Part shown: positions 36,606-58,968 of the stretch, piece after piece
Position numbering within the stretch: the stretch's first letter is position 1
Layout: each line of letters opens with the position of its first letter
IMG/VR virus record: IMGVR_UViG_3300037071_002299
Location: 1 to 58,968 of that record
From: a virus
Length of the DNA stretch: 58,968 nucleotides
Reading direction: 5' to 3' (one strand)
Made by a program: the position numbers and the translations under genes
The notes under the pieces: model-generated
The model's input: the letters and a program-made list of their open reading frames with translations, nothing else
Databases searched by the model: none
Told to the model about the DNA's origin: nothing

Positions 36606-36662
36606 ATGAACACAATACCGAACCGCGCCGACGGTCACAAGACGACCGGGCGGTCGCCATGA
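36606..36662 (+). CDS. Leader peptide coupled to the replication gene
   Basis: An 18-residue frame (MNTIPNRADGHKTTGRSP) has an excellent ribosome site (AAAGGAGAGATCAATCT) and ends in ATGA, overlapping the next start. The next gene has no site of its own, so this leader probably delivers ribosomes to it. Confidence 0.6.
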   Translation: MNTIPNRADGHKTTGRSP

Positions 36663-37459
36663 GGGCGCGTAACGTCAAACCCGGACTGTTCAAAAATGAA
36701 CAACTCGGCGGCGCCGATCCGCTCTACACCCTGATCTTTGAAGGGCTCTGGATGCTGGCGGATCGTGAAGGCCGGCTTGAAGATCGGCCGCTACGCATCC
36801 ACGCCGAGATCAACCCGTACCGGGCCGCGGACGGAACAATCGCGGCGGTCGATTGGCTCGTCGAGAATCGTTTCGTCATCCGCTACAAAGTGGACGGCGT
36901 GTCCTATCTTCAGATTCTGATGTTCCACAAGCATCAGAACCCTCACCAGCGGGAGTCGCCCAGCGAGATCCCGCCGCCGCCTGGTGGTGTGGACCGTTAT
37001 CTGCACGATCCGGTTACGGCCGAGCAACGAACCAGGATTCTGACTAGAGACGGCACTTGCCGACGGTGCGGGAGTGCGGAGAATCTTGAAGTCGATCATA
37101 TAGTTCCGCTGGCCCGGAGGGGTACATCCGAGGATGAAAACCTGCAGGCGTTGTGCGGTCCTTGTAACCGTCAGAAAGGAGCCAAGCATAGCCTAGGCAA
37201 TGGCAAAGCACAGCCTAGGCACGACCAAGGCACAGCCAAGGCTATGCCGAGCCCGGCTGATTCCGGATTCTCTGATTCCCCCTTCCTGATTCCGGATTCC
37301 TCTCTTCTCCGTTCTTCCTCTTCTGGTGATTTATCACCATCTCCATCTGGGGGGTTGTCAGGGGGGAGAGCGATTAAAAATCGCAACGAGAAGAAGCGGG
37401 CGGTCGACGCTGCCGTCCGTGGCATCGCCCAACAGAAAGCTTTCGGAGGCAAGCCATGA
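36659..37459 (+). CDS. Replication-type winged-helix protein carrying an HNH domain
   Basis: 266 residues. Residues 1-105 (ARNVKPGLFKNEQLGGADPLYTLIFEGLWMLADREGRLEDRP ... ILMFHKHQNPH) match the N-terminal domain of phage replication organiser proteins. Residues 120-177 form an HNH module: CRRC (134/137), VDH (145-147), CGPCN (166-170). The C-terminus (190-240) is Ser/Pro-rich and low-complexity. The usual DnaD-like C-terminal half is missing; the HNH replaces it. Whether it initiates replication or nicks DNA is open. No helicase or helicase loader is recognised nearby. Confidence 0.8.
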   Translation: MRARNVKPGLFKNEQLGGADPLYTLIFEGLWMLADREGRLEDRPLRIHAEINPYRAADGTIAAVDWLVENRFVIRYKVDGVSYLQILMFHKHQNPHQRESPSEIPPPPGGVDRYLHDPVTAEQRTRILTRDGTCRRCGSAENLEVDHIVPLARRGTSEDENLQALCGPCNRQKGAKHSLGNGKAQPRHDQGTAKAMPSPADSGFSDSPFLIPDSSLLRSSSSGDLSPSPSGGLSGGRAIKNRNEKKRAVDAAVRGIAQQKAFGGKP

Positions 37460-37734
37460 CGCACTACTCGATGCCCATGACGTCCGAGCAGGAGGCCGCG
37501 CTCGCCGCGATGCCGAAGCTCGAGGGCGCAGTCGTGAATCTGTTCTTCGTTCCGCCGCGCCTGCGGCCCGGGCTGGAGGATCAATGGCGGGAGTGGTGTC
37601 GAGCGCATCCCCGATCGTTGTGGCCCGAGTGGCTGGTCGCATGGGGCGAGTACCGCAAGAGCGGGCAGGCGCCGGGCTACGTCGGGCGGTTTGAAGAGCG
37701 CGCCGAAGGAGGCACATCAGCCGCAGCCCGGTGA
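37456..37734 (+). CDS. Hypothetical protein after the replication gene
   Basis: 92 residues, ATG overlapping the previous stop. LEDQWREWCRAHPRSLWPEWLVAWGEYRKSGQAPGYVGRF is Trp- and Arg-rich and probably helical; the family is not recognised. Translational coupling suggests it works with the replication-type protein. Confidence 0.7.
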   Translation: MTHYSMPMTSEQEAALAAMPKLEGAVVNLFFVPPRLRPGLEDQWREWCRAHPRSLWPEWLVAWGEYRKSGQAPGYVGRFEERAEGGTSAAAR

Positions 37735-37772
37735 CACGTCACCATTGATGTGACATGGCACTGTGCTATACT
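37730..37772 (+). promoter_or_regulatory. Rightward early promoter with palindromic operator
   Basis: TTGATG (37745-37750), 16 bases, TATACT (37767-37772). A perfect 14-bp palindrome GGTGACACGTCACC (37730-37743) abuts the -35, and TGACATGGCA fills the spacer start. The same layout recurs at 38312-38357. Confidence 0.75.
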
Positions 37773-37800: not shown

Positions 37801-38331
37801 ATGAACGGCGATCCACGTTACACGCCAGTCGTGCAGGCGCTGCCGGCGACGTTGCCGCCACTCACCCGAGCGGAAGCGCAACGCGCGGCGCGGCGGCTCT
37901 ACCGCCAGTTCCTGACCGCGGAGGACTGTGGCGAGGGCGGGCGCGTTGTGAAGTTCATGGGCAGCGCACGCCGCTGCTGGGTGAGTCCGCGCCCGACCAG
38001 CGGTCACCGCAAGGGCTGGGGCCGTCTGGTTCACGACGTCTCGCACGGGATCTTCCGCTGGCGCTACCCGAAGCTGCGCCCGCACCACGGGCTGCACGCC
38101 AAGCTGGAGGCGGAGATTGCGGCCTACGTGGCCGGCAGCGGCTGGCTCGATGGGGCGCTCAAGCCGAAGGCCAAGGCGAAGTTCTCCATCGACGAGCGCC
38201 GGGCCATGAAGCTCGCCCGCATCGAGCAGCGCCTGGAACGCTGGCAGGCGAAAGAGCGTCGGGCGCAGACCGCGATCAAGAAACTGAAGCGCCAGCAGGC
38301 CGCACTACGACGGGTGACAAGTCACCCTTGA
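37801..38331 (+). CDS. Hypothetical protein with an HDVSH...H motif
   Basis: 176 residues, with CCACGGGAGG (37785-37794) as ribosome site. The middle reads GRLVHDVSHGIFRWRYPKLRPHHGLHAKLEAEIAAYVAGSGWLDG: an HDxxH pair plus later His and Glu, similar in layout to HExxH zinc sites but with Asp. The C-terminus is a basic coiled helix (IEQRLERWQAKERRAQTAIKKLKRQQ). Function unknown; a metal-dependent enzyme is possible. A competing frame at 37755-38336 is rejected because its start lacks the motif and its composition is poor. Confidence 0.7.
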   Translation: MNGDPRYTPVVQALPATLPPLTRAEAQRAARRLYRQFLTAEDCGEGGRVVKFMGSARRCWVSPRPTSGHRKGWGRLVHDVSHGIFRWRYPKLRPHHGLHAKLEAEIAAYVAGSGWLDGALKPKAKAKFSIDERRAMKLARIEQRLERWQAKERRAQTAIKKLKRQQAALRRVTSHP

Positions 38332-38357
38332 CGTGACATGGCACCCGGCCTTATAGT
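38312..38357 (+). promoter_or_regulatory. Second rightward early promoter, same operator layout
   Basis: TTGACG (38328-38333), 18 bases, TATAGT (38352-38357). A 16-base near-palindrome GGGTGACAAGTCACCC (38312-38327) precedes the -35 and TGACATGGCAC follows it. The operator also encodes the last residues of the upstream protein, and the -35 overlaps its stop codon. Confidence 0.75.
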
Positions 38358-43497: not shown

Positions 43498-44495
43498 GCT
43501 ACACCCGCTGGCCGTACAGTGTGCGCACGCGCCCGCTGACGAAGCGGGTACCGCTGATCATTTACGGCCTGTCGATCTCGAGCGGCGACGGCGAGGTCTT
43601 CGACGTTGCACCGGACAACGCGACGCACGGCCATACGGTCAGCTCGCCGACGGTTGTCACCAGTTCGGTCGTCGTTCCTGCCAGTTGCACGCACAGTCAC
43701 ACCGTCACCGCGCCGACGGTGACGGCCAAGTTCGCCGTCGCCGCGGCGAGCTGTACTCACGGTCATACGGTGACCTCGCCAGGTATCGTCACCACGTCGA
43801 ACGTGGTGCCGGCGAGTTGCACACACGGGCACACGGTCACTGCCCCGACGGTCGTGACGAGTGCCGTCGTGGTGCCGGCCAACTGTACGCACGGTCATAC
43901 CGTCACCTCACCGAGCATTGTCACGACGACGTCCGTCGTCCCTGCGAGCTGCACGCACGGTCATACCGTCACCTCACCCGCGGTGGGGATGGGCACTGCG
44001 GTCCTGCCCGCGGGCTGCACGCACGGTCATACGGCGAGTTCACCGACCATCACGGTCGAGTACGGCATCACCCCGGCCAACTGCACGCACGGTCACACCG
44101 TCACTTCGCCCAACATCGCGACCGGCAGCGTCGTGCTGCCCGACGATGCGACGCACGGTCATTTCGTTTCGCAGTCAGCGGTGTGGCTGATCGCGCACGT
44201 CCTGCCCGCGAACTGCATACACGGCCACACCGCCTCGGCCTCGGCGATCGGCACCGGTATGCTCGTGATACCGGCGAGCTGCGTGCATGGTCACACCGCC
44301 ACCAGCCCGATCATTCGCGCCGCCGATGCACGACCGACGGAGTTCTGCGAGGTGGAACCGGAAGCGTGGATGGTTGCCGCCACTGCGGATGACCGGTGGG
44401 CCAGCACTCACAGCGAGATCGTTTTCTATCCGGTGGAGCCGGCGCCGCACTCCGTTGAAGTACTCAACGATGTGGCTTGTCGCGTAAGCCCTTGA
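43494..44495 (+). CDS. HxH-repeat fibre-like protein
   Basis: 333 residues. Residues about 43-277 consist of eleven HGH (one HSH) motifs spaced exactly 22 residues apart; a typical unit is CTHGHTVTSPTVVTTSVVPAS. In trimeric phage fibre and spike tips, HxH pairs from three chains can bind an iron ion, so a metal-stapled rod is a reasonable model. Most repeats also have one Cys. The N-terminal 30 and C-terminal 55 residues are non-repetitive. It is followed by two terminators. Confidence 0.8.
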   Translation: MSYTRWPYSVRTRPLTKRVPLIIYGLSISSGDGEVFDVAPDNATHGHTVSSPTVVTSSVVVPASCTHSHTVTAPTVTAKFAVAAASCTHGHTVTSPGIVTTSNVVPASCTHGHTVTAPTVVTSAVVVPANCTHGHTVTSPSIVTTTSVVPASCTHGHTVTSPAVGMGTAVLPAGCTHGHTASSPTITVEYGITPANCTHGHTVTSPNIATGSVVLPDDATHGHFVSQSAVWLIAHVLPANCIHGHTASASAIGTGMLVIPASCVHGHTATSPIIRAADARPTEFCEVEPEAWMVAATADDRWASTHSEIVFYPVEPAPHSVEVLNDVACRVSP

Positions 44496-49529: not shown

Positions 49530-50300
49530 ATGCCCGACCGTCCGCCTCAGCACGCGCCACGGGGGAGCCCCAGACGGCATTCGGTGGCGACCAACGACTG
49601 GGGCAAGTCGCGGGGCCGGAAGATGTCGAGCCGCCCATGGGAGCGGCTGCGGCAGCAGGTACTGGCACGGGACCGCTACCTCTGTCAGCGATGCCTTGCC
49701 TTTGGCCGGGTGACCCGTGCCACCGAGGTCGACCACGTCATCCCCCTCGAGCAGGGTGGTCGGGAGGACGATTCCCGCAACTGCCAGTCCCTGTGTCACG
49801 ACTGCCACCTCATCAAGACCGCCACAGAGCGCCGTGGGGCGGCGGCGCGGCCGGAGTGGCTACCGACCCCCCGCTGCCCCGTGACGCTGCTCACCGGGCC
49901 TCCGGGGGCCGGCAAGACGACGTATGCGCGGGCTCACCGGGCACCGGGCGACGTAGTGGTCGACTTGGACGACTGTTTCTTCGACATCTGCGGGGTCCAC
50001 GGGCACACCGCCGACCGCGCCCATCTGGGCGCCGCCCTGCGGTTGCGCAACGCCCGCTTGGCGGACTTGGCCCGCAAGTCGATCACCGGGCGGGCATGGG
50101 TCATCGTCGGTGCGCCAACGAGGGAGGAGGAGCAATGGTGGGTTACCAAGCTCGGCGACGCGCAGCACTTGAGGCTCGATCCCGGCGTCGAAGTCTTGCG
50201 GCTGCGTATCAGTCCGGCCCGTTTTCAGTTGGCGGAGCAGTGGTACGCCGAGCGCAATATCAGCCCGGTGGAGATCCAGTTGGCGGACCCGGTCTCCTGA
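49530..50300 (+). CDS. HNH nuclease fused to a P-loop kinase-like domain
   Basis: 256 residues. HNH: YLCQRC (52/55), EVDHVIPL (67-73), LCHDCH (89/92). P-loop: LLTGPPGAGKTTYA (Walker A 123-130), then VVVDLDDCFFD (Walker B-like) as in phage ATPases and polynucleotide kinases. HNH proteins of this sort normally sit beside the terminase and take part in packaging cleavage; here it is 9 kb of the map away from the right end. The C-terminal part contains two copies of the 22-bp element, in frame (50208 and 50259), so the protein ends with repeated ISPxxxQLA. Confidence 0.85.
   Translation: MPDRPPQHAPRGSPRRHSVATNDWGKSRGRKMSSRPWERLRQQVLARDRYLCQRCLAFGRVTRATEVDHVIPLEQGGREDDSRNCQSLCHDCHLIKTATERRGAAARPEWLPTPRCPVTLLTGPPGAGKTTYARAHRAPGDVVVDLDDCFFDICGVHGHTADRAHLGAALRLRNARLADLARKSITGRAWVIVGAPTREEEQWWVTKLGDAQHLRLDPGVEVLRLRISPARFQLAEQWYAERNISPVEIQLADPVS
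50208..50229 (+). repeat. 22-bp element, copy in coding sequence
   Basis: ATCAGTCCG then GCCCG then TTTTCAGT, encoding ISPARFQ in the HNH/P-loop protein. Confidence 0.75.
50259..50280 (+). repeat. 22-bp element, copy in coding sequence
   Basis: ATCAGCCCG...ATCCAGT, diverged on the right side, encoding ISPVEIQ in the same protein, 51 bases after the previous copy. Confidence 0.6.
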
Positions 50301-50321
50301 TCAGCCCGGTCATTTTTCAGT
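50300..50321 (+). repeat. 22-bp element at the HNH/P-loop stop codon
   Basis: ATCAGCCCG...TTTTCAGT; its first base is the last base of the TGA stop. It marks the far end of the leftward gene block. Confidence 0.8.
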
Positions 50322-50515
50322 GCGGCTGGAACTCGAGCCAGTGGCTGCGGCAGGTGCTGGCGCCACGGGAATGCGTCGACGCCTGCCTGCCCTCGCCGGT
50401 CGAGGAGGCATGGCTCGCCGACCTCGCGACCTGGTGGCCGGAGGTCAGCCCCGCGAATGCCGCGAGCCGTGCGGCATCAGCCCCGACGATATTCGGATTC
50501 CGCCGAACTCGCTGA

Positions 50516-50746
50516 TCAGTATCGCCACTCGCTGCCGACGGCCAGCTTGTAGGCGGTGACCGCCGCGCGGAACGCCTCGTACCACGCCAGAACCGCGTCG
50601 TCGGCTTTCGCCAGTTTCTTGAGCGCCGCGGGCGGTATGCGGTTGCCCTTGTAGTACGGGTTCCACCCGAAGTGCTCGCCACGGTCGGCGAGGGCGCGCG
50701 CGGTCTCGCTGAGTGCGCCTATGGACAGCTGCGTGGTTCGTTTCAC
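50516..50746 (-). CDS. Small hypothetical early protein
   Basis: 76 residues. QLSIGALSETARALADRGEHFGWNPYYKGNRIPPAALKKL, then a helix with two Trp/Tyr (LAWYEAFRAAVTAYK). Last gene of the leftward operon; its start overlaps the upstream stop. No family recognised. Confidence 0.7.
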   Translation of the reverse strand: MKRTTQLSIGALSETARALADRGEHFGWNPYYKGNRIPPAALKKLAKADDAVLAWYEAFRAAVTAYKLAVGSEWRY

Positions 50747-51072
50747 TGGCCCAACTCCACCCGGCCATCGACATAGACCGTGACGGCGCGCGCGCCCTTG
50801 CGGTACGTCTGGACGAGATCATCGCGATCCGGGTCCGTGCCCTCGTTGGAGATCATGACGGTCGCGCGGCGCTCGGAGGCGACGTCTTGGGCGAGCGCGA
50901 TGGCGACGACGAGGTCGGTGCAATCGCCTGCGTACTTGCCCTCGCACCAAAGGTAATAGCTGATCGGGAGCCGTTCCGCGATCGCGATCAGCCGCTCGCC
51001 GCTCGGCAGCAATTTGCCGTCGATCATGTAGTCGTTCAGCGCCAGTGAGTGTAGCCATTGGCGGTCGTTCAT
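50743..51072 (-). CDS. Hypothetical early protein
   Basis: 109 residues. MNDRQWLHSLALNDYMIDGKLLPSGERLIAIAERLPISYYLWCEGKYAGDC then a beta-rich end. The ACACGGGAG motif lies at 51078-51087 (other strand). No family recognised. Confidence 0.7.
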   Translation of the reverse strand: MNDRQWLHSLALNDYMIDGKLLPSGERLIAIAERLPISYYLWCEGKYAGDCTDLVVAIALAQDVASERRATVMISNEGTDPDRDDLVQTYRKGARAVTVYVDGRVELGQ

Positions 51073-51099
51073 GTGTTGCTCCCGTGTGAAAGTTAGAAA

Positions 51100-51121
51100 A
51101 TCAGCCTGTCAGGATTTCAGT
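51100..51121 (-). repeat. 22-bp element with the stop codon of the 51117 gene
   Basis: ATCAGCCTG...ATTTCAGT on the plus strand; the TGA of the leftward gene lies inside it. Confidence 0.85.
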
Positions 51122-51437
51122 TCTCCGGCTGCGTGCGCAGTGAGCGCGCCGGGCGGATGTCCCGCAGCGTCACGTCGATCCGCATCAGCAGTTCCGGTGA
51201 CATATCATCGGCATCGAGCAGTGCGGCACGCGCGCGCGTGAGCACTTCCAGCAGTTCGCACCGCTCGGTCTGAGCCTTGAGCATGGCCGTGCAGATGCGC
51301 TCCGCGACCGAGCGCGGGTTGTCGCTGCCGTTGCCGCTGCCAACGTCGGCATCCAGATAGTGCAGCGCGGCGGTGCGTACCTGCGAGAAGAAGTCGAACC
51401 AGGACGTGCTGCCGAGCGTTGACGTGTTGTCTTTCAT
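51117..51437 (-). CDS. Hypothetical early protein
   Basis: 106 residues from ATG 51437 (MKDNTSTLGSTSWFDFF). Helical (SVAERICTAMLKAQTERCELLEVLTRARAALLDADDM). A degenerate start motif (ACTTGGAGAA) lies upstream. Stop codon inside the 22-bp element. Confidence 0.7.
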   Translation of the reverse strand: MKDNTSTLGSTSWFDFFSQVRTAALHYLDADVGSGNGSDNPRSVAERICTAMLKAQTERCELLEVLTRARAALLDADDMSPELLMRIDVTLRDIRPARSLRTQPEN

Positions 51438-51464
51438 TGTGGTTTCTCCAAGTGGATGTGCGGG

Positions 51465-51486
51465 ATCAGCCCGTCGAATTTTCAGT
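51465..51486 (-). repeat. 22-bp element, consensus copy
   Basis: ATCAGCCCG-TCGAA-TTTTCAGT, identical to copies at 55279 and 55369. The stop codon of the gene at 51482 is its TGA. Confidence 0.9.
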
Positions 51487-51688
51487 CGATTGGCCGGATC
51501 AGTTTCGCCCCTTCCCACGGCATGTAGCCGCCGTAGTCGTCGCGGGCGCGCATGATGATGACAGCATCCATCGCCGCAGGCCGCGACGTGAAGGGGCCGT
51601 CGGCATCGCGCCAGAGGCCAAAGCGGCGGCGCTGGACGTAGAATGTCCATCGCTGGCGCTCGATTCGTTGCACGATTCGTCGTTTCAT
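51482..51688 (-). CDS. Small basic hypothetical protein
   Basis: 68 residues from ATG 51688 with ACACGGGAGA upstream (51694-51703). MKRRIVQRIERQRWTFYVQRRRFGLWRDADGPFTSRPAAMDAVI suggests a compact basic fold, maybe RNA- or DNA-binding. Stop codon lies in the 22-bp element. Confidence 0.7.
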   Translation of the reverse strand: MKRRIVQRIERQRWTFYVQRRRFGLWRDADGPFTSRPAAMDAVIIMRARDDYGGYMPWEGAKLIRPID

Positions 51689-51715
51689 CGTCGTCTCCCG
51701 TGTGAAGGGGCTGCG

Positions 51716-51737
51716 ATCAGCCCCGTGAATTTTCAGT
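51716..51737 (-). repeat. 22-bp element with the stop of the 51717 gene
   Basis: ATCAGCCCC...TTTTCAGT on plus; here the gene ends at the other TGA, at the left edge of the element. Confidence 0.85.
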
Positions 51738-51977
51738 CGTTGTCGGCGCAGGCCGCAAGGGTGCTGGATTGCGCACGCAGAGCCGGTGTCCGTACTTCTC
51801 CATGAACAGGCCGCCCGGTGCGATGCGCTCGATGGCCTCGCGGATTTCCTCGGCAGCGAAGCCAGGTTCATCGTAGTCGGTCGCCCGCGTGCCCAGTTCC
51901 TTCGCGCAGAGCATCGTCATGTCTGCGAAGAAATCGTATAGGTCGGCGTAGCAAGGACTCTCTCGTTTGGTCGTCAT
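51717..51977 (-). CDS. Small hypothetical early protein
   Basis: 86 residues from ATG 51977, ACACGGGAGA upstream (51983-51992). SPCYADLYDFFADMTMLCAKELGTRATDYDEPGFAAEEIREAIERI suggests helices. It reads through the 22-bp element as TENSRG before stopping. No family is recognised. Confidence 0.7.
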   Translation of the reverse strand: MTTKRESPCYADLYDFFADMTMLCAKELGTRATDYDEPGFAAEEIREAIERIAPGGLFMEKYGHRLCVRNPAPLRPAPTTTENSRG

Positions 51978-52003
51978 GTGTTTCTCCCGTGTGTGTGTGT
52001 CAG

Positions 52004-52030
52004 AAAAGGGGCGGGCTCGCAACCCGCCCC
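52004..52030 (-). terminator. Terminator after the DUF932 gene
   Basis: Leftward, an 8-bp stem GGGGCGGG / CCCGCCCC with a 7-base loop is followed by TTTT. It lies just after the DUF932 stop, where a 22-bp element is absent. Confidence 0.75.
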
Positions 52031-52037
52031 AGTTCAC

Positions 52038-53114
52038 TCATGCCGCCTGTCGGAGTTCCGCCCCGGCGACCCGCTGCCAGTCGGAGCGGGGCAAGGTGAT
52101 GATGTTGCCGCCGATCTTCTCCAACTCGGTCGCCCGGTCGTAGCTCTCGGCATCGTTCGCCAGATTGGTCACGGCATTCGCCATGCCGTAGAGCGTGTAG
52201 TCGCGGCCCTGTATGAGTCGTTCCAGCACGCTCTCCTGCTCGCCTTGCAGCAGCCCGACCGTCTTGGCGAGCAACTGCACGGCAGCCTGCGGGCTCTTGA
52301 CGGGCTCGGTATCCGCCGCATCGCGTAGCTTGGCGACGATCTTATCCAGCATCACTTCGCTGGTGGCCGCGCGGATCATGTCGCGCATCTTGAGCAGGAT
52401 TGCGGAGTCCTCGGCGCGCATGGTGTCCTCGGCCAGCACGACCCCCTCGGGCAGTTCCAGGCGCGAGCCGACGTGTGCGCGCCGCCACTTGTACTCGGCC
52501 ACGACCATGCCGTTTGTGCAGCGCAGCCGCTCGATCCACGGATCGACGTAGAGCGAGCCGTCGCCAATCTCGGAGTTGCCGATGATGACGCCAGCACGCA
52601 CCGGGTCGCCCACCTTGACGTCGCGCAGCAGGCTCGTCACCACCGCCTTGATGTAGAGCCGCCGCTCGGTGACTTCGCAACTCACCACCTGCACGTCGGA
52701 GCGTTCCAGCAGGGCCGGCAGCGTCGTCTCCGCGACGTGTTCATGGTCGATGCGCTGGTAGCGGTCAGAGAGCAGCGCACGGGCCGAGCCGTCGAGCGTG
52801 CGGACCATGTGCCGCGCGTCGGACTTACGGAACCAGTGATTGACGTTGCGCTCCCACAGGTCGGAGTCCGACTCGCCCAGCAGGCGGTCGTAGTACGCCT
52901 TGGCAATGCCAGTCTTCTCGGCAATCTGCCCGTGCGTGTGCTGGTTGACGTTGAACAACTCATCGCCCGCACCGTTGACGAACAGGGTGGGCGCACGATC
53001 GAGGCCCATGCGCGTTGCGCTGATGTGCTGTGCGGGCACGATGTAGTCGTGCTTCGCACCTGATTGCCGCATGATTTCAGCGGCGAGTTCCTGCAAGTTT
53101 CTGCCTGTTTTCAT
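52038..53114 (-). CDS. DUF932 phage/plasmid-like protein
   Basis: 358 residues. LQELAAEIMRQSGAKHDYIVPAQHISATR, the middle RTLDGSARALLSDRYQRIDHEHVAE, and YVDPWIERLRCTNGMVVAEYKWRRAHVG match the DUF932 family (TIGR03299-like) found in phages and plasmids; role unknown, often near replication or early genes. ACACGGGAGA (53124-53133) lies before its ATG. Confidence 0.85.
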   Translation of the reverse strand: MKTGRNLQELAAEIMRQSGAKHDYIVPAQHISATRMGLDRAPTLFVNGAGDELFNVNQHTHGQIAEKTGIAKAYYDRLLGESDSDLWERNVNHWFRKSDARHMVRTLDGSARALLSDRYQRIDHEHVAETTLPALLERSDVQVVSCEVTERRLYIKAVVTSLLRDVKVGDPVRAGVIIGNSEIGDGSLYVDPWIERLRCTNGMVVAEYKWRRAHVGSRLELPEGVVLAEDTMRAEDSAILLKMRDMIRAATSEVMLDKIVAKLRDAADTEPVKSPQAAVQLLAKTVGLLQGEQESVLERLIQGRDYTLYGMANAVTNLANDAESYDRATELEKIGGNIITLPRSDWQRVAGAELRQAA

Positions 53115-53147
53115 GGTCGAAAGTCTCCCGTGTGGTTGATGGAAAAA

Positions 53148-53169
53148 ATCAGCCCGTGGCGTTCTGAGT
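53148..53169 (-). repeat. 22-bp element with the stop of the 53149 gene
   Basis: ATCAGCCCG...TTCTGAGT; right half diverged. The leftward gene ends at the TGA of its left edge. Confidence 0.75.
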
Positions 53170-53520
53170 CAGGCGGGCAAAGAGCGTGTGCGGGAACAGA
53201 AACCGCTTGCCGTCATCGCGCGCCGCAATGATCTTGCTGCCTCGGTTCGCACCGACGACCGTGAAGGTGCGTACACCCTGCTTGAAGGTTGTGCCGAGCG
53301 CGGGCAGCTTATCGTCGTACTTGCGGCGCATCTCGTACTCTGCGGCCTGCCTGTCGAGCCCGCCCTCGACGACGCCCTCGACCGAAAAGGTGAAGGAGTC
53401 GTCGCGGTACTTGCACCCGTCTGCCGTCAGCGACTTGAGCCCGTGACGCTTCGCGACCTCGACCAGTGCGGCGTCGATGTCGGCGCGCAGAACGCGCAGG
53501 AAGTCTCTTGAAATGGTCAT
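53149..53520 (-). CDS. Hypothetical early phage protein
   Basis: 123 residues. TISRDFLRVLRADIDAALVEVAKRHGLKSLTADGCKYRDDSFTFSVE is a pattern I have seen in many small phage proteins without function. The end is beta-rich (TFTVVGANRGSKIIAARDDGKRFLFPHTLF). ACACGGGAGA is at 53527-53536. Confidence 0.75.
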   Translation of the reverse strand: MTISRDFLRVLRADIDAALVEVAKRHGLKSLTADGCKYRDDSFTFSVEGVVEGGLDRQAAEYEMRRKYDDKLPALGTTFKQGVRTFTVVGANRGSKIIAARDDGKRFLFPHTLFARLTQNATG

Positions 53521-53550
53521 TGATGGTCTCCCGTGTTGAGTGGAGGCGGG

Positions 53551-53572
53551 ATCAGCCCGCCGAAGTTTCAGT
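53551..53572 (-). repeat. 22-bp element with the stop of the 53568 gene
   Basis: ATCAGCCCG...AGTTTCAGT; the leftward TGA is in its right half. Confidence 0.85.
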
Positions 53573-53768
53573 TGAGAGTATGCGCCCGTGACCTGTCACT
53601 GGTCAATGCCTCGTACTCTTGGTCAAGGTAGTCAAGCAGATACTTGACGTAACCCGTGGCGAGCCGGTATCCGTCGAAGTCGAACTCCTGGTCGAATCGC
53701 TCGCACGCCTCGCAAAAAGCGTTGCGCAGCCGCTCGACCCGCGCGGGTGTGAATGTGATGGTCTGCAT
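53568..53768 (-). CDS. Small hypothetical early protein
   Basis: 66 residues. ITFTPARVERLRNAFCEACERFDQEFDFDGYRLATGYVKYLLDYLDQEY: a helical acidic protein. CACGGGAGA at 53776-53785. Stop codon in the 22-bp element. Confidence 0.7.
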   Translation of the reverse strand: MQTITFTPARVERLRNAFCEACERFDQEFDFDGYRLATGYVKYLLDYLDQEYEALTSDRSRAHTLN

Positions 53769-53798
53769 GGTCGTGTCTCCCGTGATGGTGGATGGAAA

Positions 53799-53820
53799 AT
53801 CAGCCCGTCAGGATTTCAAG
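53799..53820 (-). repeat. 22-bp element with the stop of the 53816 gene
   Basis: ATCAGCCCG...GATTTCAAG; contains the TGA of the leftward gene. Confidence 0.75.
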
Positions 53821-54127
53821 TCAAATCGGCAGCATCGTCGTCAAATTCGTTAATGTCGCGAATCACGCGACCTGTCTCACGCACCGCTTGCGCGATCACT
53901 TCTAGGCTGTCCGAGCCCCATTCGGTGCCGTCGAGTACTTGGTGAATACACTCAACTGCCTCGGTGTCTGTAATCGTCGTTCGCTCGTCCCGCTCGCGCG
54001 CGACGTTGGCGCGGCGCTTGGCCTCACTGGCGATGCGGTCCATGAGCGCGATGTACTCGGGCAGTTCCGGCCCGCCGAGTTCCTCGGCTTGCTGTAGCGC
54101 GTCGAGAATGTCTGTTTCGATGGTCAT
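53816..54127 (-). CDS. Hypothetical early protein, acidic
   Basis: 103 residues. TIETDILDALQQAEELGGPELPEYIALMDRIASEAKRRANVARERDER, then acidic end (DINEFDDDAADLT). ACACGGGAGA at 54133-54142. No family recognised. Confidence 0.7.
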   Translation of the reverse strand: MTIETDILDALQQAEELGGPELPEYIALMDRIASEAKRRANVARERDERTTITDTEAVECIHQVLDGTEWGSDSLEVIAQAVRETGRVIRDINEFDDDAADLT

Positions 54128-54153
54128 GTCAGTCTCCCGTGTTGAGTGGAAAA

Positions 54154-54175
54154 ATCAGCCCGTGCGGTTTTCAGT
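54154..54175 (-). repeat. 22-bp element with the stop of the 54171 gene
   Basis: ATCAGCCCG...TTTTCAGT; contains the leftward TGA. Confidence 0.85.
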
Positions 54176-54740
54176 GCGGGCAGGGTCCGGTGTAGTGCGG
54201 GCCGTTGCTGCGCTCGCACTCATCGCACCCGTTCGGACTGCCGAAGCCGTGCGCCTCGGCCAGCCGGTCGATGATGCGAGTGGCGACCGCGCGATCGAAT
54301 CCCAGGCGCGCCTGGAAGTCGTCGAGCATGTCGAGCATCTCGTCATAGCGCGATGGACTGTCGAGGCACTCGACCTGTTCCAGAAAGAGCCCGCCGAGGC
54401 CGAGCCGGTGCATCTCGCGCCCCGCGTCCGCGATGGCGTCGGGAATGAGTCCGGTATCAGCCCGCCGGTATCCGAGTTCAGGGTGCGCAAGCGCAGTCCA
54501 TGCCGCGCCGCCCGTCAGGCGGGACACGTCGCCCGCGTTCGGCGGCGCATCGCGCTCGTCCAGTACGGCGATGCACGCCCAATCGAAGCGAGCCTCATGC
54601 ACGGCAGTCACTTGGCAGAGCAGGCGTCCAGCGTGCCAGCCCGTCAGCCCCTTGCCCGACCACGGGCGGCGGAATTCGGAAACGAATATCGCCCCCGGCT
54701 GAATGTCGTCCCGCGTGAGGCGGTTCACGGCTGCACCCAT
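54171..54740 (-). CDS. Hypothetical early protein
   Basis: 189 residues. RLTRDDIQPGAIFVSEFRRPWSGKGLTGWHAGRLLCQVTAVH is beta-rich (SH3-like); the end has GCDECERSNGPHYTGPCPH, a possible zinc knuckle. Inside it (54456-54477) a diverged 22-bp element encodes LGYRRAD. Its ATG overlaps the previous gene. No family recognised. Confidence 0.7.
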   Translation of the reverse strand: MGAAVNRLTRDDIQPGAIFVSEFRRPWSGKGLTGWHAGRLLCQVTAVHEARFDWACIAVLDERDAPPNAGDVSRLTGGAAWTALAHPELGYRRADTGLIPDAIADAGREMHRLGLGGLFLEQVECLDSPSRYDEMLDMLDDFQARLGFDRAVATRIIDRLAEAHGFGSPNGCDECERSNGPHYTGPCPH

Positions 54741-54928
54741 CGCGGCAGGTCGGACGGATACTCAGTCCCGTCGAGCGCGTCCAAGCAGACGGCGCGGTCC
54801 GGTCCCCTGACGGAGAAGATGGTCGCCACACTTTCCGGGTCGCGATGGATGCCTAATGCCTGTTCCGCAGCATCCAGTTCTGACTCGGCCTCGACTTCGA
54901 TGTACCAGACAACCTGATAGGCGGTCAT
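54725..54928 (-). CDS. Small hypothetical early protein
   Basis: 67 residues. YQVVWYIEVEAESELDAAEQALGIHRDPESVATIFSVRG: ferredoxin-like alpha/beta, a shape common in small phage proteins. It overlaps genes on both sides and lacks the start motif, so it is translationally coupled. Confidence 0.7.
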   Translation of the reverse strand: MTAYQVVWYIEVEAESELDAAEQALGIHRDPESVATIFSVRGPDRAVCLDALDGTEYPSDLPRWVQP

Positions 54929-55254
54929 GGCTGCACCTTGGCGAGTGCGGCGTGGGCTGCTGTCAGTACGTTGTGTTCTCGCACGCTTTCAAGAATGCCG
55001 CGCGATGTGGTATTGGATCGTGACGCTATTGCGTCACGCGACGCCCACTCTGCGTAAGTCTCGACTCGCTCGATCAGCGACGACAGCGCCGCGTACAGGT
55101 CGGGCGCAGCGGCGATAAGTGATTCGTTGCGCGCCGCGTCGTCGTTATGGTCGCTGAATACAACGCAGACTTCGGCACCGTTTGCGCCGAAAATGCGGCC
55201 ATTGGATCGGTCCACGGTCCACGGTCCCGGTGTGAAATTGGTGTGCTTGGTCAT
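54925..55254 (-). CDS. First gene of the 55-kb leftward operon
   Basis: 109 residues from ATG 55254 with ACACGGGAGA (55259-55268). TKHTNFTPGPWTVDRSNGRIFGANGAEVCVVFSDHNDDAARNESLIAAAPDLYAALSSLIE is a known phage-wide small-protein pattern with unknown function. It sits directly behind the promoter at 55307-55335. Confidence 0.75.
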   Translation of the reverse strand: MTKHTNFTPGPWTVDRSNGRIFGANGAEVCVVFSDHNDDAARNESLIAAAPDLYAALSSLIERVETYAEWASRDAIASRSNTTSRGILESVREHNVLTAAHAALAKVQP

Positions 55255-55278
55255 GTTGTCTCCCGTGTCAGTTGGTGA

Positions 55279-55539
55279 ATCAGCCCGTCGAATTTTCAGT
55301 TCGGCTTTTATACTCCGTGACATGTCCACAGTCAAGGAGTCGTATCAGCCCGGTCAATTTTCAGTCCTATCAGCCCGTCGAATTTTCAGTTGATGGACTC
55401 GACCTGGCGTTCCAGGCGAGCTCTATCAGCCCGCGTAAAATTCAGTCGAGCCGCTATCAGCCCGCCCGATTTTCAGTTCGGCATCAGCCCGACCAAGTTT
55501 CAGTTTCCTGGCCAGGCATCAGCCCAAGCGATTTTCAGT
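55279..55539 (-). repeat. Cluster of seven 22-bp elements
   Basis: Copies begin at 55279, 55344, 55369, 55425, 55456, 55483 and 55518, all in the same orientation and each 22 bases long. The left nine (ATCAGCCCG) and right seven (TTTCAGT) are conserved and the central five to six vary; copies 1 and 3 are identical. Gaps are 43, 3, 34, 9, 5 and 13 bases. No gene lies inside. The promoter at 55307-55335 lies between copies 1 and 2. Confidence 0.92.
55307..55335 (-). promoter_or_regulatory. Leftward early promoter
   Basis: Reading leftward, TTGACT, 17 bases, TATAAA. The spacer contains TGACATGTCC (55318-55327 on plus), one of the TGACATGTCA-family sites. It should drive the operon from 55254 to 50516. 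Confidence 0.82.
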
Positions 55540-55708
55540 TCGCAGCCGTGACAGGCGCAGCCCGCCAGCAAGGCGCAGCCGCACCGCTCGATAGCACGGC
55601 TTTCGGGCGCGCGGCAGCCGCAACAGTTATGTTGCTTTTTGGGCGCAGCCGCGCAGCCGCAAGGCAGCAACAGTCGCAGTCGCGGTAAGGCAACAGCCAC
55701 CGTCGAGG

Positions 55709-55837
55709 CAGCAGCCGTCAGGGCAGCAGCCGTCAGGCAGCAGCCGTCAGGCAGCAGCCGTCAGGGCAGCAGCCGTCAGGCAGCAGCCGTCAGGCAGCAG
55801 CCGTCAGGCAGCCACCGTCAGGGCAGCAGCCGTCAGG
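55709..55837. repeat. Minisatellite of 14-15 bp units
   Basis: Nine units of CAGCAGCCGTCAGG, some with an extra G, in direct tandem. The unit is not a multiple of three. It lies between the leftward glutamine amidotransferase gene and the 22-bp cluster. Confidence 0.9.
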
Positions 55838-55911
55838 GCAGCAGCAGCGATGTAGGAACGCGCAAGGGTGTGCCGGTAGTGTGCCTCCCGTGACGTGACA
55901 AGTAGTCTGGA

Positions 55912-56797: not shown

Positions 56798-58003
56798 TTA
56801 AAGATCGGAAACGGCCGCAGCCGCCGCGAACTGTGCTGGTGCTGGCGCGCGTGCTGGCATGAAACCGGCAGCGCGCAAAAAGCACGTCAGATGCGCATAC
56901 GTCTTGCTACGTGCGGCGAGCCAATCAAGAAACGGCTGCGGCTGTTCGACATCGCGCATGCTGGCAGTCGCGCAATACGTGAGAATGGCGTGGCAAAATT
57001 CCAGGTTTTTAAGCACGCGCTCCGGTCGCAGATTGCCGCGAAACAATCGAAATTCGATGGTCTGACGGCCGCTGATATTCAGCAGGTCGTAGCGGCTCGC
57101 GCCTAGCATGCCGCCGTCTTTGATGCGCTTGCGAGTGTCGCGGACGCAGTAGTTACTGCCACCGGATTCTCCTTCCGTCAGCAACGGTCGCTGTGCAATG
57201 GCGCGAACCAGCGCGTGGTTACCATTGCAATTCAAAAATACCAGTGTCTTGCCAATCTGTAGCGGCGACAGTGCGCGGCGATTCGCATGGATGTGGATTC
57301 CGCAGCGATTCGTTCCTGCACCGGAACGCGCGCGACGCGCTAACGGCTGGAGCAATGCCGGCCAGTTGAAGGATTGCGCATGCTGATCCAGCGTATACGG
57401 CAGTGTCACTAACTCAATGCCGCTGTCGTAATTCAGCGAGCCGTCAGATTTGAGAATGTACCGGCCATCGCCATGCTTGCCGCCAAGCATGCGCACGACT
57501 GTTTCGCGGTCTGTCGTGGTTTCCATCTCAAGCTCAACACCGAAGCACAGCGCATGCCGCGATGTTTCGCGCGGCCATCCGTGTACTTCCAATACATCCG
57601 TGCTGTAGTCGGCTAGCGTGTCTTGATCATCTTCTTCTGCACTGTCGTGCCACGCGTCGTCGGATTCCCAGTAGTACAAATGGTCGCAAGCGTAGGCATA
57701 GGTCGAGTGTTCGCCAGTGTCTCCGCAATACACGGTTTCGCCATTGTTGAAGCACGGCATACACCACGCTTCGCGCCGACGCAGAGCGGTGCGCAGTTCC
57801 TGCATGCTGTCGCAGTCAGTCAATTCCTCGCATGAGCCGCAAGGCGTCGCATGATCGGCTGCGCATGCATCGCACCATGTTTGCTCGATTCCGCGCCGAC
57901 CGACTTGCACGGTAAGCGCGCTGTCGGTGTCGGTCGCTGCGTCGCAGTGCGCGCAGACTATCGAATCCTCGGCAGCCGTTTCGTTTTGAGTGTCAGTTGT
58001 CAT
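56798..58003 (-). CDS. Putative amidoligase (Amidoligase_2, GS-like) with zinc ribbons
   Basis: 401 residues. Residues 1-110 hold several CxxC pairs (17/20, 44/47, 55/58, 81/84) likely to bind zinc. Residues 150-345 match the carboxylate-amine ligase family: FGVELEME (154-161), KSDGSLN and GIELVT (185-200), RCGIHIHAN (233-241), NISGRQTIEFRLFRGNL (309-325). These families ligate an amine or peptide amino group to a carboxylate using ATP. Substrate unknown. The start motif is at 58009-58018. Preceded by a 67-residue gene and followed by the amidotransferase. Confidence 0.85.
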   Translation of the reverse strand: MTTDTQNETAAEDSIVCAHCDAATDTDSALTVQVGRRGIEQTWCDACAADHATPCGSCEELTDCDSMQELRTALRRREAWCMPCFNNGETVYCGDTGEHSTYAYACDHLYYWESDDAWHDSAEEDDQDTLADYSTDVLEVHGWPRETSRHALCFGVELEMETTTDRETVVRMLGGKHGDGRYILKSDGSLNYDSGIELVTLPYTLDQHAQSFNWPALLQPLARRARSGAGTNRCGIHIHANRRALSPLQIGKTLVFLNCNGNHALVRAIAQRPLLTEGESGGSNYCVRDTRKRIKDGGMLGASRYDLLNISGRQTIEFRLFRGNLRPERVLKNLEFCHAILTYCATASMRDVEQPQPFLDWLAARSKTYAHLTCFLRAAGFMPARAPAPAQFAAAAAVSDL

Positions 58004-58232: not shown

Positions 58233-58270
58233 GTCATTCTCCCGTGTGAGATAGAAAGTTAACGCGCGCG

Positions 58271-58297
58271 AGTATACCAGCGGACATGTCACGTCAA
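58271..58297 (-). promoter_or_regulatory. Leftward promoter of the amidoligase operon
   Basis: Reading leftward, TTGACG, 15 bases, TGGTATACT (extended -10). GACATGTCAC of the palindrome family lies in the spacer. It is expected to drive genes 58232 to 55949. Confidence 0.75.
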
Positions 58298-58414
58298 CGG
58301 GCATCGGTCGCAATTCTTATAGCGCGTGCTTATCACACTGCGCGACCTTATAACCTAATGACATGTCACCGGAACGGGCATCGTCCCGCGTTTCAGGTTA
58401 TTAAGACATGTCAC
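58283..58414. promoter_or_regulatory. Three TGACATGTCA-type operator sites
   Basis: GACATGTCAC at 58283-58292, TGACATGTCA at 58359-58368 (perfect 10-bp palindrome) and GACATGTCAC at 58405-58414; a fourth, TGACATGTCG, is at 58649-58658. They lie upstream of the amidoligase operon. Confidence 0.75.
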
Positions 58415-58508
58415 GTTAGAAGCAAACGGTATGAGCTTGGCAAGGGCGCGCGGATGCCATAGGACAGCATAAGAGCCGCTGAGAGCCGACTTGAGCCGAC
58501 CCGCTACC

Positions 58509-58598
58509 TAATCCACGGCTGCCAGTTATCAACAGGGTTATGCACAAGATATACAGTCAGGAAAATCCGTGACTTGCAGGCTGTGCATATGTGCATAA
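58509..58598. other. Candidate replication origin with DnaA-box-like sites
   Basis: Within 90 bases: TAATCCACG (58509), TTATCAACA (58526), TTATGCACA (58538-58546, fits TTATNCACA) and its inverse TGTGCATAA (58590-58598), plus TGTGCATAT (58582). The stretch is richer in A+T than its surroundings and contains no gene. Origin function is inferred. Confidence 0.55.
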
Positions 58599-58968
58599 CT
58601 TTCTAAATCGGTCCGGCACAGGCTAAACAAAGCAAGAGCCGTGCCATGTGACATGTCGAATAGCGGGGCGCGCGACCCTATCAGACTGCACGGCAATGCA
58701 CGCGCAGCGCACAGGGCAGCGCACAGGGCAGCGCCTGCGGCGACACTGTGCATGTCGCGCTCGACGCGCTCGACGCTAGCGGGTATCGACGCGCGGCCAT
58801 GCACGCGAACGCGCCCGACAGGGCAGCACAGGGCAGCGCGTCCGGACCTTGCGGGGTCGTTCCGCGCGGCAAACGAGCAACAACGGCTGCAAGTACCAAA
58901 AACGCGACTGCCGGGCGGGTCCTACGAAATTCTTGGCGCCTCGCCGGGGACCGCGCCCGCGTCTCTTC
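58599..58968. other. Non-coding right end
   Basis: I see no gene. It holds one TGACATGTCG site (58649) and short repeats of ACAGGGCAGCGC near 58711-58735 and 58817-58837. Open frames on the minus strand here are low-complexity and lack ribosome sites. Confidence 0.55.

Follow-up and report, generated by a model that had tools for sequence, protein, structure and literature searches.

A 22-bp element, ATCAGCCCG-N5-TTTTCAGT, is repeated 17 times in a single orientation within one 5.3 kb gene block of the viral record IMGVR_UViG_3300037071_002299, whose 58,968 bases were analysed as a whole (hereafter the window). We suggest, with a confidence somewhat short of even, that the element is an asymmetric DNA site for one sequence-specific regulator, encoded by the phage or by its host, which may act both as an operator and as a block to elongation. 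The 17 copies are those with no more than 2 mismatches, all forward and none reverse. With up to 3 mismatches the window holds 18 matches, all on the + strand and all within 50208-55539, against 0.33 expected from dinucleotide shuffles; the reversed pattern, used as a control, gives none. The first-pass annotation of this DNA had reported about 17 copies of 22 bp in one orientation and had named a chance-level count in shuffled sequence as what would speak against them. Its copies and their positions are all correct, and the count lies far above that of the shuffles.

In the profile of the 17 copies positions 1-5, 7 and 20 are invariant, and positions 10-12 are almost random (0.1-0.3 bit). Both ends look as if they are maintained by purifying selection, because recent duplication would have preserved the centre as well. 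Read leftward, in the direction of the genes that it accompanies, the element becomes ACTGAAAA-N5-CGGGCTGAT and contains TGA twice, at positions 3 and 19. It is not an inverted repeat, and a hairpin or terminator built into it was rejected, as the copies have no common stable fold. An Rfam search gave no match.

Seven leftward genes end within an element, five of them at the TGA of position 3 and two at that of position 19, just as the first-pass annotation had stated. Gene starts were taken from a simple prediction script and promoters from consensus prediction. The element is present at every gapped junction except g71/g70 (seven junctions) and absent from the overlapping gene pairs (g75/g76/g77, g66/g67). 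The only gapped junction without it carries an intrinsic terminator instead, which supports a role of the element in transcription. Since TGA occurs in two of the three frames of the element, all seven genes would stop there by run-in with a probability of (2/3)^7 = 0.06, and the stop coincidence alone is therefore weak evidence for a stop-related function. The stop codon is probably a by-product of tight packing and of the two TGA frames. The fixed distance to the next gene is more telling: each junction copy also lies 24-33 bp ahead of the following start codon and 12-16 nt from the ribosome-binding sequence where that sequence is intact. Among the eight leaders, that from 51465 to 51437 has a diverged one, and in the eighth the element (55279) is preceded by a promoter and not by a gene. 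The module of stop plus element, spacer, ACACGGGAGA and start codon, proposed earlier for each gene boundary, holds at seven junctions but not at the overlapping pairs or at g71/g70. ACACGGGAGA itself is the ribosome-binding sequence genome-wide, across early genes, and is not specific to the junction module.

Two predicted sigma70-like promoters, p55.3 and p53.6, place the element at about the expected transcript start, a few base pairs past the -10 box (Table 1). A general promoter scan lists only p53.6 of the two, with promoter-like sites no more frequent than in shuffles; the case for both promoters comes from the operator that they share and not from the hexamers alone. This operator, GTGACNNGTCAC, perfect or near-perfect in both, is common to other promoters of the genome and is likely recognised by a regulator of the phage or of its host. 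The palindrome lies in or beside promoter-like sequence at 37731-37772, 38314-38357, 53588-53599, 55317-55328 and 58281-58659. Six further copies of the element are stacked between p55.3 and a hairpin after g78 (-43.5 kcal/mol), at which termination is plausible, though not certain, the T tail being short.

The six copies upstream of p55.3 would not be transcribed from it, and a DNA site is therefore favoured over an RNA one. If the element acted as RNA, it would form the first part of each cistron's 5' leader, as a site of RNA processing or of a translational regulator, and the six upstream copies would belong to a decoy (sponge) transcript. The fixed distances to the ribosome-binding sequence and start codon would suit such a role, as would the predicted transcripts of p55.3 and p53.6, which start at or near an element and so make all leaders alike. 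However, the copies share no hairpin or conserved fold, and the folding energies of the junction leaders are mostly ordinary compared with shuffles. Moreover, besides the six copies upstream of the promoter, three lie inside or immediately past the 3' end of the HNH gene, which runs rightward and converges on the block. We consider an RNA element unlikely, and the RNA processing sites proposed in the first-pass annotation are weakened by the same upstream copies and missing fold.

The regulator would contact the two blocks, ATCAGCCCG and TTTTCAGT, leaving about 5 bp between them unread. The operator role would fall to the six copies above p55.3 and to those just past the -10 box of either promoter. 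The single junction copies, all oriented alike relative to transcription, would block or pause the elongating RNA polymerase or cause its partial termination, and the three far-end copies would shield the convergent HNH gene, at whose end a consensus scan found no intrinsic terminator. We infer the binding of a protein, its action on transcription and the sign of its effect from the sequence, number and orientation of the copies, their confinement to one block, their placement with respect to stops, starts and predicted promoters, and the conserved ends around a random centre. Such a scheme, with action at initiation and at elongation, resembles what L5-type repressors do at operators and stoperators; they bind as monomers, and their asymmetric sites, oriented with transcription, are found in promoters and in short gaps between genes (PMC9283540). 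The stoperators of L5 and other cluster A phages share with the element the asymmetry, the single orientation relative to transcription and the location in promoters and short gaps, but are 13 bp long and not 22 bp. The L5-type 13-bp consensus, GGTGGMTGTCAAG, has 3 matches at 2 mismatches in the window (2.9 expected) and is not enriched, and no repressor homologue was recognised among the window proteins scanned; we therefore say that the element may work like a stoperator, not that it is one.

Table 1. Elements, promoters and genes of the punctuated block. For elements, strand - is the direction of the leftward operon; the pattern itself was matched on the + strand.
Feature	Position	Strand	Basis or remark
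Element copy in 3' end of convergent HNH gene	50208..50229	-	pattern match
Element copy in 3' end of HNH gene	50259..50280	-	pattern match, 2 mismatches
Element copy, first base is last base of HNH stop codon	50300..50321	-	pattern match
Junction element	51100..51121	-	g68 stop at position 3; g67 start 27 bp on
Junction element	51465..51486	-	g69 stop at position 3; g68 start 27 bp on
Junction element	51716..51737	-	g70 stop at position 19; g69 start 27 bp on
Junction element	53148..53169	-	g72 stop at position 19; g71 start 33 bp on
Junction element	53551..53572	-	g73 stop at position 3; 4 bp past p53.6 -10; g72 start 30 bp on
Junction element	53799..53820	-	g74 stop at position 3; g73 start 30 bp on
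Junction element	54154..54175	-	g75 stop at position 3; g74 start 26 bp on
Weak element-like match within g75	54456..54477	-	3 mismatches; could be chance
Element at predicted operon transcript start	55279..55300	-	6 bp past p55.3 -10; g77 start 24 bp on
Element copies (six) upstream of p55.3	55344, 55369, 55425, 55456, 55483, 55518 (55344..55539)	-	pattern match
Promoter p55.3, TTGACT-N17-TATAAA	55307..55335	-	GTGGACATGTCAC in spacer
Promoter p53.6, TTGACC-N18-CATACT	53577..53606	-	perfect GTGACAGGTCAC in spacer
Intrinsic terminator, g71/g70 junction	52008..52030	-	consensus scan and fold; sole gapped junction without element
HNH/P-loop gene	49530..50300	+	last 30 codons contain two element copies
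Leftward gene block g77-g66, punctuated by elements	50516..55254	-	12 small genes, including DUF932 gene at 52038-53114

Several points weigh against this scheme. An elongation block at every junction would leave the distal genes poorly expressed, and the terminator upstream of g70, with neither element nor promoter after it, is not explained by the model. The protein scans, which covered some but not all of the small proteins, recognised no integrase and neither a CI-like nor an L5-like repressor, which leaves the site without a candidate binder. Several junction leaders share TTTTTCCACTCAAC-like spacers and are thus related beyond the element, so part of their similarity could stem from duplication. 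Finally, the element is known from one genome among the collections searched, a genome represented without right-arm strain variants. The scan of viral_contigs gave 34 single matches, most of them to copies of a single unrelated sequence, with the others consistent with chance, and that of genome_contigs gave 19 single matches. The region had no blastn match among phages and plasmids, and 23 terminase-related records contained neither clustered element copies nor a DUF932 relative. When 8 of these 23 were searched de novo for bipartite repeats on one strand, only coding tandem repeats and palindrome-like or low-count pairs emerged. Nevertheless, regulator binding remains the best of the three roles that the first-pass annotation had proposed, although not for every junction, as it had put it.

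The mycobacteriophage stoperators and start-associated sequences cited in that annotation are a fair comparison, but a nearer architecture was missed. T1-like phages carry 16-20 copies of an oriented 21-22 bp intergenic repeat (PMC11447400, PMC4319613), the function of which is listed as an open question in a recent paper (PMC11447400). The consensus of this repeat in Drexlerviridae (T1, TLS, Stevie), ATAGCACNNNTTGYTAAAA, is unrelated to the window element, and its form ATAGCACNNNTTGNTAAAA is absent from the window even with 3 mismatches allowed. Both are nonetheless asymmetric and bipartite with a variable centre, number about 20, are oriented with transcription, and lie at junctions at a fixed distance from the next start. 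T1, TLS and the window also share the placement of the upstream gene's stop codon inside the repeat. By a hand count on the deposited gene calls, 15 T1 copies have an upstream gene nearby, whose stop lies inside 11 of them and directly before 2; the corresponding TLS figures are 10 and 4 of 15. In T1 the copies occur in several gene blocks and on both strands, unlike those of the window, which occupy one block.

Exactly 19 bp downstream of 17 of the 21 T1 copies and 15 of the 19 TLS copies stands a hexamer that agrees with TATAAT in at least 4 of 6 bases, against at most 6 at other offsets and about 5% at random positions. Downstream of several T1 copies an inverted repeat also surrounds the -10 box; the one that follows the copy at 1450, for instance, reads ggggtatcttgctatagttacccc. 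Most T1 and TLS copies match the E. coli marbox, the MarA/SoxS/Rob site AYnGCACnnWnnRYYAAAY (PMC3709825), with 0-1 mismatches, whereas shuffled genomes hold about 1-2 such matches. The repeats are oriented as are class II sites, which stand forward (PMC6900184). They are thus candidate class II MarA/SoxS/Rob promoters, a link for which we found no paper in the open-licence literature searched. The window itself has no exact marbox and one single-mismatch match, which is not element sequence.

By analogy with what we propose for T1-like phages, each junction of the window might have its own promoter, with the element as an upstream activator site. The shared architecture invites this comparison, and only 8 bp separate the copy at 55344 from the p55.3 -35 box downstream of it. 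However, the window element has no fixed TATAAT-like box 19 bp downstream. A sigma70 core tied to it was rejected, as neither TATAAT nor TTGACA occurs at any fixed offset beyond what start-codon context explains, and a phage-specific RNA polymerase promoter was rejected with no polymerase gene recognised. Furthermore, just 24-33 bp separate the element from the start codon, ribosome-binding sequence included, and both clear promoters lie on its opposite side. An activator site is thus rather improbable, and without a fixed promoter box the window element represents a mechanism or variant distinct from the T1-like repeats.

The genome around the block bears on whether the element marks exchangeable gene cassettes. 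The window is probably the complete linear genome of a bacterial virus: a second viral contig (L058), with 99.97% identity over 12,231 bases, begins at the same base bar the first few letters, which points to a physical genome end. The terminase large subunit (540-2234) has 64% identity to that of Pseudomonas phage D3, and the head, portal and tail genes are oriented rightward. The region at 34-38 kb contains genes for a YqaJ-type recombinase and a YdaS/Cro-like regulator, as well as a replication initiator-like gene; the protein of 36659-37459 combines an HNH domain with an N-terminus resembling a replication initiator. In the D3-like phage PMG1 the matching HNH gene stops about 200 bp short of the right end, while 8.7 kb of mostly leftward genes lie beyond its counterpart in the window, which ends at 50300. 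The position of the block where PMG1 has so little, the small size of its genes, mostly without relatives (in viral_contigs none was found by the DUF932 gene, nor by g78 outside the block), and the partly duplicated leaders would fit the gain or exchange of genes by way of short repeats that stay behind at the 3' ends. Yet no site-specific recombinase, inverted repeat or relative with a swapped cassette was found, and the copies, diverged at the centre with their ends kept, are not recent duplicates. Homology for cassette exchange, also suggested in the first-pass annotation, has no supporting relative, and we hold it to be quite improbable.

The seven-copy cluster lies in a non-coding region of about 690 bp, beside a 14-bp unit, CCGTCAGGCAGCAG, repeated 10 times in tandem at 55700-55845. 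This neighbourhood recalls an iteron or centromere array for replication, partition or DNA maintenance, with the dispersed copies secondary. The spacing of the copies is irregular (25-65 bp), though, with no helical phase, the replication initiator-like gene is situated elsewhere, and no ParA/ParM-like gene was recognised. Such a function would also leave the exact placement ahead of start codons unexplained, and we judge it very improbable. Type I restriction sites, MuA/TnsB-like ends, cosB and homing-endonuclease targets were set aside on layout only (half-sites too long, one orientation, none near the genome ends). The right end, 58250-58968, comprises about 700 bp without called genes and contains DnaA-box-like TTATCAACA/TTATGCACA and several ACATGTCAC palindromes; it is a possible origin or promoter region. 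Elsewhere, an amidoligase-like gene occupies 56798-58003 in the leftward right arm, and nine imperfect repeats of a 66-nt period lie at 43611-44299 within a rightward gene.

Other known repeats share parts of this layout. The start-associated sequences (SAS) and extended SAS (ESAS) of cluster K phages likewise stand just ahead of small-gene starts in a block. The ESAS are 17-bp inverted repeats (PMC3203893), unlike the window element, and the SAS consensus, GGGATAGGAGCCC, has no match in the window. Beggiatoaceae genomes carry TAACTGA direct repeats upstream of start codons, at times overlapping the upstream stop codon (PMC4679880); these are tandem heptamers in bacterial genomes, without a bipartite 22-bp unit. 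As with the attC sites of integrons, the element follows a gene's stop codon in one orientation. The attC sites are longer inverted-repeat structures, whereas the element has neither inverted repeat nor conserved fold, and no integrase accompanies it among the proteins recognised.

Oriented junction repeats were already known in a few phage groups, and the window adds a further, unrelated case in which the layout is likewise stop-bearing but the relation to the promoter differs; it also provides defined probes. New here are the 24-33 bp spacing to the starts, the promoter-linked copies, and the stop-codon and -10 box findings in T1 and TLS. It is possible, though on balance doubtful, that unrelated siphophages independently evolved a stop-bearing junction module, in which an asymmetric putative regulator site of about 20 bp is fused to each gene's stop and would allow each gene of an otherwise polycistronic block to be controlled individually. 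The T1-like site would then apparently be a host MarA/SoxS/Rob site, and the window site an unrelated one, placed differently relative to the promoter. For the T1-like repeats the comparison yields a testable proposal, namely that they may be class II promoters dependent on MarA, SoxS or Rob.

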